Source: a virus
IMG/VR virus record: IMGVR_UViG_3300045125_000161
Location: 1 to 36,391 of that record
Reading direction: 5' to 3' (one strand)
Length of the DNA stretch: 36,391 nucleotides
The notes under the pieces are model-generated. The model ran no database searches, had not been told where the DNA came from, and saw only the letters and a program-made list of their open reading frames with translations. Of this stretch, positions 4,974 to 29,496 are shown piece after piece (the first letter of the stretch is position 1; every line of letters starts with the position of its first letter). The position numbers and the translations under genes are program-made.

Positions 4974-5317
4974 ATGAGTTTTAATAAAGATGCTTGCTCC
5001 GCTGTAGAATATTTGGCAAAAAGCAACTAATTGCTCTCTTGCCTTCAAAAATTGATACGTCTAAAGTAATTGTCAAAACTACCGGCGAAGTAATTGATCT
5101 CTCAAATGTCTCGCCAACTATTGCTAAACAGAATATCAATAATGGTTCTTGGATTTTTTATGAAACATTGATGCCAAGAAGAATGCTTTTAACTAATCCT
5201 AACTGGGTAATAAATAGTTTTGACTCTAAAGCAAAAGTAGCTTGCGTAATCATGTACTCAAAAAATGGATCAAATCACTTTTCATTCTCGCTTAATCCCC
5301 CATCAATCAAATTTTAA
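4974..5317 (+). CDS. Hypothetical protein
   Basis: About 114 residues: MSFNKDACSAVEYLAKSN, then after a frameshift IALLPSKIDTSKVIVKTTGE, LSNVSPTIAKQNINNGSW, RRMLLTNPNWVINSF and the end NGSNHFSFSLNPPSIKF. No family recognised. It is mostly beta-like and soluble. AGAGAA lies upstream of the start and a late promoter box at 4936. It meets the aminotransferase gene tail to tail with a four-base overlap. Confidence 0.55.
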
Positions 5318-6536
5318 ACAACTTTTTTAATGAAATTGATAGCATTATTCACGTCAGATCTGGAAAATGTCAATGGCGGTCTTAAACGAATTGATTTTTC
5401 TCCACAAGCAAGAACAGTCATATTTTCTTTAACTTAAATAAAACATAATCCCTGATTCCATAATCCGGCAAATCAAACGCACACATTAAACCAAGTCCAC
5501 GTACATTCGAAATTCTAGAAACTTTTTTTAGAGATTCTAAAAATACTCGCCGATAACTCTTGCGTTTTCTATTAAATTTTCTTCTTGAATAATAGAAATA
5601 ATTTTACTGAATCGAATCATATCAACAATATTGCCGCCCCATGTTGAATTTATCCTGCTTGATTCAGTGAAAACATTGTTTAAAACATTGTCAATTCGAT
5701 TAGTAGATGCAAAGCCGCAAACTTGAGTCTTTTTGCCGAATACAAGCATGTCTGGAATCACTCCAAAATGCTCATATGCCCACATTTTGCCAGTTAAACC
5801 TACGCCGGTCTGAACTTCATCAAATATAAGCATCGCCTCATACTTGTCTGCTAATCGTCGCAAAGCTGCAAAATACCTTGGCGTAAAATGGTTGTCACCC
5901 CCTTCACCTTGTATAGTTTCAAGTATTATTGCAGCTACCATATTAGTTTTTAAAGCTTCTTCAGCCTTTTTTAAACTAATCTCCTCTAAGTTTGCGACTT
6001 CGCCATCTACTAAAGGAAATTTTATTGCAGGATTCTTAATTCTAGTCCATGCAAATTTTGGAAATAATGCAGTTTTATTCCTCGCAGTATTCGTTAAAGA
6101 TAAACAATATCCAGTTCTTCCATGAAAAGCTTGCTCCAAATGAATTACATCTAAATCATTTACTTGCTCCTCACATAATCCTAATCTCTTCGCTTTCCAG
6201 TCAAATGCAGCCTTTAACGCATTTTCAACCGCTACACTGCCGCCTTCAACAAAAAAGAAATGCTTGAAGTCTGGCAAAATCGAAGCAAATTTTTCAATAA
6301 ATTCAGCTAATTCTTCACTGTAAAAATCTGAATTGGCATACTTGTGCAATAAATTATCAATATGCAATTTGGGATGATTCCAACCTAAAGGTAGACTTGC
6401 ATATTGGAGTCGAACAATCAAGATATTCGCCTGTTGTTTTATCGACTAAATAAGATCCATGGCTCTTGGATGCGTCAATGACTATATCCTCGCCGTCTCC
6501 TATTGTATGTTTTCCTATAATTTGATGAATATTCAT
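5314..6536 (-). CDS. lat: L-lysine 6-transaminase-like class III aminotransferase
   Basis: A PLP-dependent enzyme of the lysine epsilon-aminotransferase type, which in characterised bacteria moves the side-chain amino group of lysine to 2-oxoglutarate. About 407 residues, slightly short for the family. Motifs in order: SHGSYLVDKTTGEYLD, YASLPLGWNHPKL, HFFFVEGGSVAVENALKAA, EQAFHGRTGYCLSLTNT, AAIILETIQGEGGDNHF, the PLP aspartate in LIFDEVQTGVGLTG, the Schiff-base lysine in VFGKKTQVCGF, and SSRINSTWGGNIVDMIR. The C-terminus RGLGLMCAFDLPDYGIRDYV and RLRPPLTFS is recovered after frameshifts near 5537 and 5440; another is near 6420. The start overlaps the upstream stop as ATGA. The exact substrate (lysine, ornithine or an amino sugar) is inferred from motif resemblance. 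Confidence 0.82.
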
Positions 6537-9281: not shown

Positions 9282-9470
9282 TTATTGCATGCTGCCTGAA
9301 GCTGTTGCACCGTTGCATGGACCGGGACCACCGCCTACTCCACAATTATGAGGTCTTGGCTTTACAAATCGCTTCGGACCAACTATAAATGCCGTTTTCC
9401 CCGGCTCGGCTTTTCCATTGCTGATCCAACCACTTTCCTCAATCTGCTTAATCCACTCTTTAAAATTCAT
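9282..9470 (-). CDS. Small putative internal head protein with capsid-targeting-like leader
   Basis: An intact 62-residue frame. The leader MNFKEWIKQIEE resembles the T4 capsid-targeting sequence (MKTYQEFIAE in T4 internal proteins) and ends in IEE, a fit to the (L/I)xE site cut by gp21-type protease, before SGWISNGKAEPGK. The mature part is short with a Gly/Pro/Cys-rich tail (NCGVGGGPGPCNGATASG). Its ATG overlaps the upstream stop (ATGA), so it is coupled to the next gene, which carries a similar leader. Targeting is inferred from the motif and shared context. Confidence 0.6.
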   Translation of the reverse strand: MNFKEWIKQIEESGWISNGKAEPGKTAFIVGPKRFVKPRPHNCGVGGGPGPCNGATASGSMQ

Positions 9471-9718
9471 TTTTTTGATGTCGTTACAAGTTTTACAAAT
9501 TCACTATTGCTAAAAGAAGTCTTTGGATTCCTTAAAATTTTATCCATAAGCTCTTTGCCCTTTTCTGTATTTAATCTTTCCCATAAAAATTTACGAGTCG
9601 GAAGATCAAATTCATCTAAAATCTTTCTCAAAGCATTCACCAAATCATTCATTCCCTTGGCTTTGCTGCTACTCTTGCTGGCTTCATTTAATTGTCGATA
9701 TTCTTCTAGTGATTTCAT
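9467..9718 (-). CDS. Putative internal head protein with capsid-targeting-like leader
   Basis: An intact 83-residue frame. It begins MKSLEEYRQLNE, then ASKSSSKAKG: a T4-like targeting leader with a possible protease site LNE before Ala. The rest is charged and helical (DLVNALRKILDEFDLPTRK, ELMDKILRNPKTSF). AGAGG lies seven bases before the ATG and a late promoter box at 9734-9741. It is coupled to the 9470 gene by ATGA. The role as packaged head protein is inferred. Confidence 0.6.
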   Translation of the reverse strand: MKSLEEYRQLNEASKSSSKAKGMNDLVNALRKILDEFDLPTRKFLWERLNTEKGKELMDKILRNPKTSFSNSEFVKLVTTSKK

Positions 9719-9759: not shown

Positions 9760-10453
9760 ATGATAAAGAGATTAAATTTTTTGATTCTTGCTATTATTCT
9801 GTTTGCAATAATGCATAAACAAGATGTTCCGCCGCCCACAATCATTCTCGCTGGTGGAGGAACTCTGTCTGAAAATATTTATCAAAAATTCAATAACCTC
9901 GCAAGAAATAATATCGTTATTATACCCAAGTGGAATGACTAACCCAAAAGCTATTCCCGAACGTTGGAAAAATGCTAAAGTTTTACACGCAGAATCCAGA
10001 GAAGAAATTAATGAAGAATTTGCCGCTCCACTTAAAAATGCAAATGGAGTCTGGATTTTAGGTGGAGATCAGTTGAAATTAAGTAAATTGTACAAAAATA
10101 CACCCGTAGAAATTGAAATCAGAAACTTGCTTAAAAGAGGTGGTGTCGCAGGTGGAACAAGTGCTGGTGCATCTATTTTTAGTAAAGTAATGGTCTATAA
10201 TAATAGCCATGAAATAGGTCTAGGAATCTTAGATCTTATTATTGATCAACATTTTACAGAAAGAAATAGATTGCCTAGATTGAGAAAACTTATCAAAAAA
10301 TTCCCATCCAGAATCGGACTTGGTATCGATGAATGTACCGCTGCAATAATTCATCAAAACAATATCGAAGCAATTGGACTTGGAAATGTATTTGTTTGCT
10401 CAGATGAAAATATAATTCAACTTTCCGATGGAGATAAATTGGAAATGGAATGA
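9760..10453 (+). CDS. Cyanophycinase-like serine hydrolase (peptidase S51 type) with membrane anchor or signal
   Basis: About 231 residues. An N-terminal hydrophobic segment (LNFLILAIILFAIMHK, residues 5-20) suggests export or anchoring. Family motifs follow: IILAGGGTLSENIY, after one frameshift near 9930 IPSGMTNPKAIPERW, then GVWILGGDQLKLSKLY, the nucleophile elbow GGVAGGTSAGASIFS (Ser of GTSAG), IIDQHFTERNRLPRLRK and RIGLGIDECTAAII. This set matches cyanophycinase, which cleaves the Asp-Arg storage polymer cyanophycin, and related S51 peptidases specific for aspartyl bonds. TTAGG lies before the ATG. It diverges from the 9718 gene and meets an HNH gene tail to tail. Substrate in this phage is unknown. 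Confidence 0.8.
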
Positions 10454-11985: not shown

Positions 11986-12028
11986 TAACATTATAAAAAA
12001 TATGGTGGTAGAACACTATATAATGTTA
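11986..12028 (+). promoter_or_regulatory. Hairpin covering the tnpB start
   Basis: Perfect 10-base arms TAACATTATA (11986-11995) and TATAATGTTA (12019-12028) with a 23-base loop. The A of the tnpB ATG is the last base of the right arm, so the folded RNA would restrict ribosome access. It could also be the left-end hairpin of an IS605-type element. Confidence 0.5.
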
Positions 12029-13280
12029 TGATAACCTTAAAGTTGAAACTCACTCAACCAATAAACATTGAAAAATATCAAAAGCAATTTACTAATATTC
12101 GTAATTTTGCCTTTAATAGATTTATTGAAGGTATGTCGCAAAATCAAATTGAACAAGAAGTAAAAAATAAACTCAATAATATCGAATTAATGGATGTTAG
12201 CCTGCAAAAAGAAGCTGTTAATGATGCAAGAACTCTAATTAAAAAAGATCAAAAAACAGTTATCTTTGGAAGTAAGAAAAATTGGCAAAATTATAACAAT
12301 AAAGTTATTTCAAAAGAAGAATACAAAAAAAGAAAACTTTGCAGTATTATTGTTCGAGGCGAAACTGGTCGAGGTAATCGCAAATTTAAACTTGATGCAA
12401 AAAATAATCAAATCATATTTTCTCCAAATAGAACAAACAAAATAATCTGTCAATATGAAAAAACTAAACGTGATAAAACATTGCTCAAATTGCAACAATT
12501 ATGTGAATTAGGAACAACGTATTTTACGGCAAGACTTGATGAAAATTATGTTTATATCACATTTGATGAAACAATCCTCAGAAAAGAAAAATACAAATCA
12601 ATAAAAAAAGAATTTGTGCAATCGACATGAACCCAAATTATATTGCGGTTGTTGTTCGTCATAATGAAAAAATATTGTACAAAGAAATTATTGGAACATA
12701 TAAACTTAACAAATGTAAAAATACTAATAAGAAAAAATTTGAAGATTATGAAATAGTAAAAAAGTTAATCAATATAGCCAAGCATTACCAATGTGAATAT
12801 TTTGCTTATGAAAAACTTGATATTGAAAGTGGAGATAAAGGCAAAGGCAAAAATTTCAATAGAATGTGTAATACTTGGCGACGTAAAAGATTGACAGAAG
12901 GAATTACGAAATGGTGCAACATTCTTGGTATTAAAATTCAAGAAGTCATACCTGAATATAGTTCTTTCATGGGACAAATAAGGAATGAGAATGATTATGA
13001 TTCTATAGCAGCAGCAATTGAATTATCAAGACGAGCATGGTTGTTTGTGAGTTATTATCATTATCAAGATATAAAAGAAGTAAAGGGAAACATTGTAGGT
13101 ATAATGCGTAAACTGCCCGAGCATTTGGTGGATCGTTGGAAGAAGAAATTAGATGCAAAGAAATTTACGACTTACAAATCTGTTTACCTTGAAATAAAGA
13201 AACGTGAATACAGCTACCGTCTTCTTTTCGATCCAAAATCGTTTTCTTGTAGGTTAAAATCTAGGAAATCTTTTGATTGA
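12028..13280 (+). CDS. tnpB: TnpB-like RNA-guided nuclease, zinc ribbon absent
   Basis: About 417 residues in two frames joined near 12620. The N-terminal half (MITLKLKLTQPINIEKYQKQ, RNFAFNRFIEGMSQNQIEQE) fits the TnpB wedge/REC region. The RuvC-like nuclease shows its three acidic sites: Asp in AIDMNPNYIAVVV, Glu in YFAYEKLDIESGDKG, and Asp in NENDYDSIAAAIELSRRA. Between the second and third sites, where typical TnpB proteins carry a CxxC zinc ribbon, there is only VIPEYSSFMGQIR, so this belongs to the zinc-less type. A C-terminal extension of about 75 residues follows. TnpB proteins cut DNA using a guide RNA from the element's right end; here the guide would read into the RCC1 gene. The TnpB assignment rests on motifs. 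Confidence 0.75.
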
Positions 13281-18062: not shown

Positions 18063-19489
18063 TCATGTATCATAAAACTTTGCTCCCTCACGGAGAAGTT
18101 TTTTGCCGTATCTTGTTAGTATCCCTTTTCTTGGACAGAAGCTCTCTGGATCGAGAACAACTGGTGTTTGCGTGAGAGGAACATATGGACAGTAGAAATA
18201 ACCTGAATCCATATAGCTATCACCCTTATAACCCATCAACAATTGGTTGGTTGGGAATAGTGGATCTTTATATAGTCTCCAACGGTTATTGACTGTACCA
18301 ACGTATTGAATACCTAGCGAGCTTGTGAAGGTTTCGGCTAGGGGCTGGTGCGAAACCGGCTGTTGCTGTTTCGAAGATCGAAGCAACTTCAGGGCTGGTA
18401 ACGATCCAGTTAGCTCCACCACGCAAGGTTTTACGATGGATAACGTTTGAAACTTCGACGACTTTAACATAGAGTGATTCATACTTTTCCTTGATGGTTT
18501 CACCGAGGGCAGTATTGAAGTCCCAAGCAGTAACAGTACCAGCTGTTGTTACGAAGATCGGTTAGAACTTCGCGGTCGATTTCGAGGTTGATTTCTTGAG
18601 CTAGAACAGCGGTTAGTTCAGCTTCAGCATCAAGATTGTGCTGTGAGCGGAGGTCTTGCTGAGCTTCATACGACCAAACAGCCTTCAACTTACGGGTCTT
18701 AGCAGCGATTTCTTCTGATTCGATCACGAGGTTGATTTCTGGAAGATCTTGGTTACATTCCATGTTATATTCATAGGAAACAACAGCATGGTTAACACCG
18801 GGAGTGCCACCATTCCAAGCGATCTTAAGTTCGCCTGTGGTGAGATCGAGCATTGAACCTGCGGTCTGACCCTTGATTGCTGGAGCACCGATATCAACGA
18901 AGTTAACTGAACCACCAGCGGTAACAACGAATGTTTGAACAGCGACGGCACCAACATAGAGTGTACCAGTAACAGTACCAGCTAGGATTGGGGTGTGTTC
19001 GAGTGGAGCATAGGTTGTGACCATACCAAGACCAGCGTCAGTTGAGCTTACTTCATTCTGAACGAACTGGCTGGAGTAGAAGATGTCCAAGTTAGCAGTA
19101 CCGTCTGCCAATTGCATCAAGCTGTTAGCGTCATCGCCGGGGAATCCACCGATATTGCTAGCACCACGGGTTGCGCCCCTTGTTGCTGCTGTATCTAAAT
19201 CGCAGGTAGTAGACCAAACCTGTTGGACCGAGCAATGAAGCTGAACAGAGACGATCTTGTTAGCGATTAGCTGTGGATAAATACGACGAACGAGAGGGAT
19301 GCTGATACGCTTGAACTGAGCGATATCGCCTGTATCTGTTGAGACTTCGTTCATAAGTCTTTGGTTTTCGAGTAGAACTGCTGTGGCACTACGAACATAA
19401 CGGTCTTGAATACCTTCGAGGAGACCTGTCTTGCCCCAACGTGTTTCTAGCTCCTTAGCCTCGTTTAAAAATCGAGAATTTGCGTTCAT
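18063..19489 (-). CDS. 23: Major capsid protein, T4 gp23-like
   Basis: The hexamer-forming shell protein of the T4-type head. About 475 residues in several frames (shifts near 19230, 18550, 18500 and 18340). It begins MNANSRFLNEAKELETRWGK, then SATAVLLENQRLMNEVSTDT and the conserved VRRIYPQLIANKIVSVQ, followed by LLGPTGLVYYLR in a shifted frame. The gp23 core is clear: EIAAKTRKLKAVWSYEAQQD, LRSQHNLDAEAELTAVLAQE, INLEIDREVLTDLRNN. The C-terminus reads IQYVGTVNNRWRLYKDPLF, GYFYCPYVPLTQTPVVLDPE and RYGKKLLREGAKFYDT. LNE and LLE near the N-terminus are possible protease sites. It is last in the gp21-gp22-gp23 order and followed by a terminator. Confidence 0.95.
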
Positions 19490-23204: not shown

Positions 23205-23534
23205 ATGGAAAGCTTTAGAGAATTTAAAGATAGGTTAGATGAAATCAGTTTATCCCAAATAGGAAAAGGCACATTTGGTCGCACTCCGTCAATCAGCACT
23301 CAATCCGCCGATGCATTGGAAACAGTATTACAAGGTTTTATGGAATTATTGGCATTTAAGCCTGCTAAAGTATTCATGTTTCTAAAAACAAATTCAAATG
23401 ATCCAAAAATTCATGCAATTGATCCTGAGACATTTAATGATCCTGCATTAAAATCACGAGTGAGACAAGCTTCTCGTAAAGTAGCACAAGGATTAGCAAA
23501 AACAGAAACTGAACCACCAACAACTGAATTTTAA
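23205..23534 (+). CDS. Putative internal head protein with capsid-targeting-like leader
   Basis: An intact 109-residue frame. It begins MESFREFKDRLDE, then ISLSQIGKGTFG: an aromatic/Glu/aromatic leader with LDE as a possible gp21-type cut. The mature part (TVLQGFMELLAFKPAKVFMF, SRVRQASRKVAQGLAKTETE) is basic and helical with a short acidic end. AAAGGGAG lies six bases before the ATG. It is followed after three bases by a second gene with the same kind of leader. The packaged-protein role is inferred. Confidence 0.65.
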   Translation: MESFREFKDRLDEISLSQIGKGTFGRTPSISTQSADALETVLQGFMELLAFKPAKVFMFLKTNSNDPKIHAIDPETFNDPALKSRVRQASRKVAQGLAKTETEPPTTEF

Positions 23535-25131: not shown

Positions 25132-27625
25132 GATTCCTCAACGCTATAATCAATATCTTCGAGATCCTGTTCGCTTTCGTAATCTTGCAGTTCCAAGTCA
25201 TATTTCTTTATGTCATCTGGATTTGCATCTGGCAAGCTTGCGGCTTCTGGAGCTTGAATTTTGGGAGTATTTTCTGTTTCAGGTGTTGGGGCTTGAGGAG
25301 TCTCAGGGCTTTCAGGAGGAGCACCTTCTTCTGGTGAAGGCATAGGAGTTGGACCGCCTGCTTCTGCGCCCAATTCTTGAGACTTTTCTTCGGTTCCGGG
25401 AATGCCAACGCCAAGAAGTTGCGGATTCTGACCCAAAACTTGCAACTTAAGATCTTCAAGTTTTTGAACTTTAAGTCTTGCGAGCATTTCTTCTGTTTCA
25501 TCATCAGAATATCTTAATATTTTAGTCATGATGTCATAATCAGACATAAGCTTGACTTCCTTTAAGAGAACCAGCATTTCCATATCTTGCATTGACAACT
25601 TCTGCTCTAGATAATTCTCTCCAATCGGATGGAGGAGTCATTTTTATTTTCAGATCTTGGTAGGAATCTTCAGGGAATCCTCTTAGTTGCAGGTGTCTTT
25701 CTGCTAATTCAAGCAACTCCATCTTCGAATGCAGATTGCAAGCGTTCGATCATCCTCGCGAACTTGACATCTTGTGATGAAAGTGTAATTCTTGTTGCAT
25801 TAGCATCTTCATTATTGAAATAATTTTTAGGAAAATTGAGTGCGGTGAGTAATTTATTTCTGAAATAAACTGCATCATCAATTTCGCCAAGATTTTCAGC
25901 CCCCGGCAAAGTTTCAATTCTTGTATTGCTATTAGGCGAATTGGTAGCCAGTAATCTTCATCTTGTGCTGGCGGCATCCATCGTTCTTCGACTTGGTTTG
26001 CTCCGGTTCCTGAATTACTCGTTGTTTTTCTTTTGCGGAATTGATCTTTAATTCGGTCTATAAATGCTTCTGCCTTGAATGGCGGCAATTGACCAACATC
26101 CACATAAAAAACACGTCGTTCTGGTGCTCTAACCAATCTATAAACAACCATTGCGTCTTCCATGAGTCTAAGGCTATGAGCAGGACCACGTGCAGGCTCA
26201 ATCAAACTTTGACCATATGGGAAGAAGGTTTTTCTATCATTCCGATTCGAAGTGAACAATTTGACTGGAGCAAAACGAATTGTATGGTGGTTTGGTTAAT
26301 TCAGTTTCATTTGTCCTGTAATTGGTCCGCGAACAAGTGCTTGATAATCTGGTCCTTCTTTTGACTGTTGGAATTCAATTAATTTTCCTTTAACAGTTTC
26401 AATCCGATACATTGTTTCTGGAGGTAAAGGAACTGCTCTATAAACACCTTCTTTGGGATTATCAGGATTAACAACTATTTCTACGAACCAATCACCTGCG
26501 ATGCACAAATTTTTAAACCATGTCCATCCATTCCTATTTAAATTAAGCATTTTGCGATGTAGCAAGAAAAAATTCGGCATTCTTTTTAACTTCATCATTA
26601 TTGGTTTTGACTTTGAAAATATTTCCTTCTTCATCTTTTTTGGCAATTATGAAGGATTACGGAATCAGTTGCAAAACATTGATGATCTTCAACGCTGATA
26701 TCATAAACTTCTTGTTCGGGACCGGGTTCAACACCAACAATTCGACGATGATCTTTTTGGAATTTATAAAGCTGTCGAATTTCTCTATGTGTAAATCCTT
26801 CTTTTTCCAGCCAATTTTCAACAGTTGCCCAATCTTTTTTGAAATCTTTCGCCGATTTGTTTAATTTTTAATTGACAACCGATCATTCGGATGGCTTTGC
26901 TGACATTTTCATAATGTGGATTGGTCTTGCTGCTTTTCCATTCATCTACAAATTGTCGTTCATGCATCCAACCTCGTTGATTGCTGAATATTCTTGGATA
27001 TTGATTATGTCGCCATTTTGTATTTGCTGGTAATCTATAAAATGGCATTAATTCATCGCCAAATTTTAATTGTCCAGCTTCTATCCAAGTGCCATTTTTA
27101 AGTAAAACTCTATGATCTTCGGTGGCTGTAAACTTGCTTCCATTGTCTAAAATAATTGTGATTGTTTTTGCGACTTTAACAAATCTTGGAGCGAATGCCC
27201 AACCGAGAGTATAATCATTCTTTTTAAAATCATAGCAATAAACCAAGAATCGTTCATCGCCTCTTTTTCTGCTAGTTCTTTGATGGCATATAAACCGAAT
27301 GGAGTTGCAATTTTTGTATCACCTGCAACACAAGCTTCATCCGAGTAAACGGTCATAGCCATTTCAATTTCTGGCACATTACGAAGTCGTTCATACTCTT
27401 TATATCGCATTTGGCGGTTTGTGAGAGTAGTTGTGTCAATCATATCGTTTGTTTGACGATAGCTTGATTGACCGCCCGGACCAGTACCTTGACCGAAATC
27501 AGTTCCTAGAGCATCTGGCTGCGCAATGCCTGCTGTAGGAAATTGTTTGGGATCTTTTCTTGCTGATAATGGATCTTTTTCACTACTGTATGTGAATAAT
27601 CGAAAAAATCACTCCAAAGTGGCAT
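25128..27625 (-). CDS. 20: Portal vertex protein, T4 gp20-like, with intein
   Basis: Forms the dodecameric DNA gate of the head. About 600 residues after removing a 229-residue intein (26646-27332). N-terminus MPLWSDFFDYSHT, GQGTGPGGQSSYRQTNDMID, RYKEYERLRNVPEIEMAMTV then YSDEA before the intein. After it: WTWFKNLCIAGDWFVEIVV, and the portal core TFFPYGQSLIEPARGPAHSL, RLMEDAMVVYRLVRAPERRV, FYVDVGQLPPFKAEAFIDRI, VEERWMPPAQDEDYWLPIR, PGAENLGEIDDAVYFRNKLL and TALNFPKNYF. A Pro/Glu-rich tail (PTPMPSPEEGAPPESPETP) extends the C-terminus beyond T4 gp20. The start has GGCGG upstream and a TATAAGTA at 27639-27646 that may be a late promoter. Frameshifts are numerous. Confidence 0.93.
26646..27332 (-). 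other. Intein in the portal protein
   Basis: A protein-splicing element of 229 codons. It starts at Cys-1 (CVAGDTKIATPFG, block A) and has block B GSKFTATEDHRVLL with the TxxH motif, LKFGDELMPFYR, block F VYDISVEDHQCFATD and block G VILHN, followed by Cys as +1 extein residue. The joined extein reads YSDEA-CQKDEEG. Between the splicing halves lie about 100 residues (ANTKWRHNQYPRIFSNQRGW, NPHYENVSKAIRMIGC, WLEKEGFTHREIRQLYKF) with no intact LAGLIDADG or HNH motif, perhaps a worn-down endonuclease. Frameshifts near 27260, 26850 and 26640 cancel or are sequencing errors. Confidence 0.9.

Positions 27626-29187: not shown

Positions 29188-29496
<309 letters not shown>

Follow-up and report, generated by a model that had tools for sequence, protein, structure and literature searches.

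A candidate exported cyanophycinase-like S51 hydrolase carried by a T4-like huge phage

Cyanophycinases break down cyanophycin, a polymer in which bacteria store nitrogen. Among solved structures, CphB of Synechocystis PCC 6803 (PDB 3EN0, 7UQW) is, by sequence and by fold, the best match to the phage protein reported here. A passage in PMC3235067 that cites Law et al. 2009 gives Gln101, Ser132, Asp172, Gln173, Arg178, Arg180 and Arg183 as critical residues of CphB. The Pseudomonas enzyme CphE is an extracellular cyanophycinase of about 43 kDa that acts on external cyanophycin and has Thr replacing Gln173 (PMC3235067). The S51 family is functionally varied and also includes PepE and MccG (PMC9239234). 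Exported S51 proteins are further found in planctomycetes; those of Gemmataceae have two domains in tandem and about 540 aa, and one other (locus L093) has a single domain. Where does the phage protein fit among these?

The phage protein compared with known S51 enzymes

The DNA analysed, hereafter the window, is the whole 36,391-bp viral record IMGVR_UViG_3300045125_000161 of IMG/VR. The capsid protein it encodes shares 68% identity with its counterpart in LR756511, an uncultured phage of 595 kb, and is distantly akin to those of T4-like phages. A relative is encoded at 379 IMG/VR loci, of which the best 80 show 71-91% identity and some are on contigs 343 and 533 kb long. Because of this capsid kinship the window is identified, on sequence, as part of the genome of a T4-like huge phage. 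The features that matter here are:

9467 to 9718, minus strand: phage gene to the left of the S51 gene, with a homologue in phage contig L070
9760 to 9927, plus strand: N-terminal part of the S51 gene, a predicted signal sequence or anchor (MIKRLNFLILAIILFAIM) and then the first strand of the fold (TIILAGGG), from the open reading frames and the AlphaFold2 model (helix 2-18, strand 27-31)
9924 to 9930, plus strand: frame break in the S51 gene, a +1 shift from the frame of ATG 9760 into the one that ends at 10453, probably due to faulty assembly
9928 to 10453, plus strand: catalytic part of the S51 gene, with GGDQ, GGTSAGA (nucleophile Ser134), DQHFTERNRLPRL (Asp162, Gln163, His164, Arg168, Arg170, Arg173) and GLGIDE (Glu191)
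18072 to 19489, minus strand: major capsid protein gene, split by frame breaks, which marks the contig as that of a T4-like huge phage

The frame that opens at ATG 9760 (frame 1) stops at 9942, and all catalytic motifs lie in another frame, which ends at 10453; with a +1 shift near 9925 allowed for, the gene gives a continuous protein of 230 aa. The original prediction, of complete S51 motifs preceded by a hydrophobic N-terminus, thus holds for the motifs, and the N-terminus is present too but in a different frame, joined to them only via the shift. The protein matches Pfam PF03575 at 57.3 bits (gathering cut-off 23.9) and the TIGR02069 cyanophycinase model at 120.6 bits (E 7.5e-35), which is under the 126.6-bit equivalog cut-off; with the PepE model it scores 17.5 bits against a cut-off of 156. 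In a phmmer comparison it matches cyanophycinase 3EN0 at E 8e-19, and its best PDB sequences are the cyanophycinases 3EN0, 7UQW and 7UQV.

The motifs GGDQ, GGTSAGA, DQHF-x2-R-x-R-x2-R-L and GLGIDECTA all lie on the plus strand and are far above chance. The G-x-S-x-G nucleophile elbow is present, and the triad Ser134, His164 and Glu191 does not vary among 39 aligned proteins, nor do the equivalents of the critical CphB residues (Gln104, Ser134, Asp162, Gln163, Arg168, Arg170 and Arg173). It should be borne in mind that the related structure 7UQV carries the motifs and yet is titled 'pseudo-CphB', so that the motifs are not proof of activity. An AlphaFold2 model (pLDDT 95.8) had as its top solved match in Foldseek the covalent complex of CphB with a cyanophycin dimer (TM 0.82); the match to PepE (1FY2) was 0.67. 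A search of PHROGs gave a single weak match, to a family of unknown function.

The phage protein thus shares with CphB the S51 fold, the Ser/His/Glu triad and equivalents of all the pocket residues, but differs in having an N-terminal signal or anchor, in a loop before DQHF that is about 20 residues shorter, and in grouping outside the CphB clade. This loop is shorter in both known phage proteins of this type than in every bacterial relative aligned, so the substrate site may differ. Like CphE the phage protein appears to be exported, but it keeps the Gln (Gln163) and is smaller (230 aa, about 25 kDa). The aspartyl dipeptidase PepE and MccG have the same family and fold, but the structural match is weaker and the PepE-model score low. 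With the exported planctomycete proteins, its nearest bacterial relatives in the tree described below, the phage protein shares a signal sequence, the GGGxLP start, GVWFSGGDQ and a short loop; most of them, however, have tandem domains and a longer loop, whereas the phage proteins have one domain. In the tandem proteins of Gemmataceae loci L087, L089 and L090 the first domain is intact and the second has GGRQ for GGDQ and a change in the last pocket Arg.

Export, viral relatives and links to planctomycetes

A hydrophobic N-terminus, defined as a 12-mer with mean hydropathy of 2.0 or more before the domain, was found in both phage proteins, 8 of 10 planctomycete proteins, 7 of 10 in class ii and 18 of 20 other exported ones, and in none of 42 canonical CphB proteins. 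It is thus common across the clade, which makes the signal a lineage trait. The window protein has neither a lipobox nor a clear cleavage site. Its prediction as an exported or anchored cyanophycinase-like protein is nevertheless well supported, and agrees with what had been proposed for it: the hydrophobic N-terminus is typical of the clade and absent from intracellular CphB, and the homologue in a related phage has a lipobox-like sequence.

S51 genes of the cyanophycinase-like kind appear to be extremely rare in viruses. None was matched in 50,697 phage records, no predicted viral structure matched the window protein at E <= 0.001, and the literature searched yielded no cyanophycinase-like enzyme encoded by a virus. 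Scans of IMG/VR with S51 queries and alignments, plus profile searches of 33 related records, gave only two other viral copies; the scans relied on short conserved patterns, and more distant copies may have escaped.

One of the two copies is in IMGVR_UViG_3300047160_036266 (G018), a 343-kb record of the same phage family whose capsid protein is 78% identical. This S51 gene is intact and encodes 257 aa; the product scores 138.9 bits with TIGR02069, which passes the 126.6-bit cut-off, and is 45% identical to the window protein. Its N-terminus (MLRYCIFLLLCFALFAC) has a lipobox-like end, LFAC, and is a lipoprotein-type signal. Some 130 kb separate the gene from that of the capsid protein; close to it are coding sequences for a methionyl-tRNA synthetase, an M24 peptidase and glutathionylspermidine synthase. 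The two phage proteins are alike in being exported, as judged by their N-termini, and in their short loop; G018 differs in its intact frame, its lipobox, its high G+C and the distant position of the gene in the genome.

The other copy (L200, 4965-5663) represents a different sort of viral S51 protein. It is CphB-like and cytoplasmic, has 232 aa and no signal sequence, carries DSHF for DQHF and GLSE for GIDE, and is encoded on a 344-kb phage contig that has no homologue of the window capsid protein.

A tree built from 87 proteins pairs the window and G018 proteins with support of 95/96, and the pair nests in an exported planctomycete clade (99/93), mostly of Gemmataceae. Canonical CphB, comprising cyanobacterial proteins and planctomycete proteins linked to cphA, forms a separate clade (99/99). 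Forcing the phage pair into the canonical CphB clade gave a borderline p of 0.056 in the AU test; the window branch is long. A cyanobacterial origin of the phage gene was considered and rejected, the cyanobacterial CphB proteins being in a separate clade. A planctomycete or similar bacterium may have been the host or, failing that, the source of the gene, which would hint at a planctomycete connection for this abundant family of huge phages. A Cys-rich secreted peptide of the related phage L070, sought as host evidence, had two weak matches in 195 planctomycete genomes.

Among the same 195 genomes, cyanophycin synthetase is present in 25 and an S51 match (E <= 1e-20) in 63. The high-scoring CphB-like S51 proteins occur in 20 genomes, all of which have the synthetase, and in most the two genes adjoin. 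The lower-scoring, mostly exported class is found in 49 genomes, 38 of which lack the synthetase, although it is still weakly positively associated with it (odds ratio 2.7, p 0.03). All eight planctomycete genomes that bear the nearest relatives of the phage proteins lack the synthetase. The exported class is therefore mostly unlinked to the cell's own store. Pfam analysis of the neighbours of Gemmata and other planctomycete S51 genes revealed no beta-aspartyl peptidase context; an amidohydrolase gene adjoins the S51 gene of L087.

Possible functions

What, then, might the phage protein do? From sequence comparison and modelling our preferred explanation, to which we give about even credence, is that it is an exported, signal-anchored or lipoprotein-like S51 serine exopeptidase that resembles cyanophycinase and is of the type that planctomycetes export, which a T4-like huge phage carries as accessory cargo and which cleaves its substrate outside the cytoplasm. 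The infected host would export the protein, and Ser134, His164 and Glu191 would then cleave, extracytoplasmically, the alpha-peptide bonds in a backbone of Asp whose basic side chains are beta-linked. The target would be cyanophycin or a similar beta-aspartyl polymer, and the beta-Asp-Arg dipeptides released would be taken up by the infected cell as nitrogen and carbon. In this scheme we infer the activity, the substrate, the benefit to the phage and the planctomycete host. An active enzyme would give huge phages a nitrogen-polymer hydrolase as a further tool, and its export would point to phages that alter the uptake of external material by the infected cell. The protein also poses a testable, structure-ready question about the substrate of the uncharacterised exported S51 proteins of many planctomycetes.

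The closest alternative keeps export and changes the substrate: the enzyme might act on beta-aspartyl or isoaspartyl cross-links of the envelope or S-layer, or on short Asp peptides, and so alter the cell surface, for example in release or in exclusion of other phages. We consider this possible though unlikely; an envelope polymer with beta-aspartyl bonds had already been named as a second option in the original proposal. The S51 proteins of both phages seem to be exported, the loop deletion is specific to the phages, the TIGR02069 score of the window protein falls under the equivalog cut-off, and the diversity of the family (PepE, MccG; PMC9239234) allows for other substrates; set against this, the Arg-binding set of CphB is fully kept and PepE-type structures match less well.

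By analogy with CphE, our best guess is that scavenging of external cyanophycin, or attack on another external polymer, fits the data better than digestion of the host's store. A more specific version, in which huge phages have an infected planctomycete-like host export a cyanophycinase of their own and the cell scavenges cyanobacterial cyanophycin as nitrogen for phage growth, is a speculation that we rate as doubtful; were scavenging to be the true reading, the gene would let a phage draw on a storage polymer outside the cell instead of on the metabolism of its host.

It had originally been suggested that the host may store cyanophycin and that the phage could mobilise this store during infection. 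The complete set of CphB residues, the presence of synthetase in 25 of the 195 planctomycete genomes and the cytoplasmic CphB-like protein of the different 344-kb phage are in keeping with this idea, and an exported enzyme could meet the granules when the host lyses. The phage protein nonetheless has a signal or anchor sequence, and the phage pair groups with the exported class and not with the cphA-linked one, in which the synthetase accompanies the gene in 20 of 20 genomes; moreover the eight closest genomes all lack it. An exported enzyme would also miss cytoplasmic granules. The suggestion is unsupported, and digestion of an intracellular store is in our judgement improbable.

Integrity and neighbourhood of the gene

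The frame break within the coding region of the S51 gene, and the occurrence of the gene in only two family members (the window and one of the 33 other records searched), could mean that it is a decaying pseudogene, acquired by chance and without function. Frame breaks are, however, frequent in the window. When open reading frames of relatives were searched against it, a portal-like gene was found in six segments, the capsid gene in three, that of a 600-aa protein in three and a scaffold gene in two (examples of broken essential genes are at 18072-19489 and 25134-27608). In phage contig L003 each of these is a single open reading frame, with 90-98% identity to the window over most segments. 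There are about 14 breaks in the 10.7 kb covered by L003 proteins, or about 1.3 per kb, so that about one break would be expected in a 0.7-kb gene from assembly error alone. Because capsid and portal genes are equally broken in the window and intact in so close a relative, the break in the S51 gene is, on this comparison, most likely an assembly error. As the catalytic residues are all kept and a related phage carries an intact homologue, decay strikes us as quite improbable. A programmed frameshift was rejected as the likely cause since essential genes are broken at an equal rate, and an altered genetic code was rejected because translation tables 4 or 15 barely alter the longest frames. The frequent breaks in essential genes mean that readings of this record based on open reading frames need care.

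That the S51 gene is bacterial DNA misassembled onto a phage contig, as its rarity in viruses might suggest, is scarcely credible given that genes of the phage family flank both sides, that its G+C content (34%) is close to that of the window (35%) and that its nearest homologue is in another phage of the family. The flanking genes that other phages of this family also carry lie at 7.2-9.7 kb and 13.3-29 kb; together with the complete catalytic and Arg-binding residues they bear out the proposal of a cyanophycinase-like S51 protein in a phage. The counterpart of the left neighbour in L070 adjoins a flavodoxin-like gene, which occupies the position of the S51 gene in the window, so the site resembles a slot for cargo genes.

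A MKTFxEYLxE-like tag stands at the start of many unrelated proteins in the family; it was counted 88 times in 1.01 Mb of phage DNA and once in 0.64 Mb of bacterial DNA. Carriers include window genes 9467-9718 and 23205-23534, L070 gene 12547-13587 (start MKTFVEYLAETTKN), and others in L003 and elsewhere. We take the tag to resemble the capsid-targeting sequence of T4 internal proteins, an analogy which suggests that tagged enzymes such as the flavodoxin-like protein of L070 may be packaged in the capsid. The S51 protein has a signal sequence in place of this tag.

Another recurrent protein of the family has a short N-terminal part and a long poly-aspartate tail of variable length with scattered Trp and Tyr. 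It is encoded in the window at 29188-29496 (minus strand) and at no fewer than 12 other loci (L003, L051, L052, L055, L057, L068, L074, L076, L077, L078, L080 and L081).

Other window genes may be noted. The portal-like gene, which in its intact form in L003 encodes 833 aa, contains an intein-like segment (ACVAGDTKIATPFGLYAIKELAE...) at 26818-27443 (minus strand). A frame-broken aminotransferase gene of the lysine 6-transaminase or acetylornithine transaminase type lies at 5317-6403 (minus strand), with 63% identity to the copy in LR756511. Finally, two adjoining open reading frames at 12028-13280 (plus strand) look like a transposon gene of the IS605/TnpB type, and are possibly one gene cut by a frame break.
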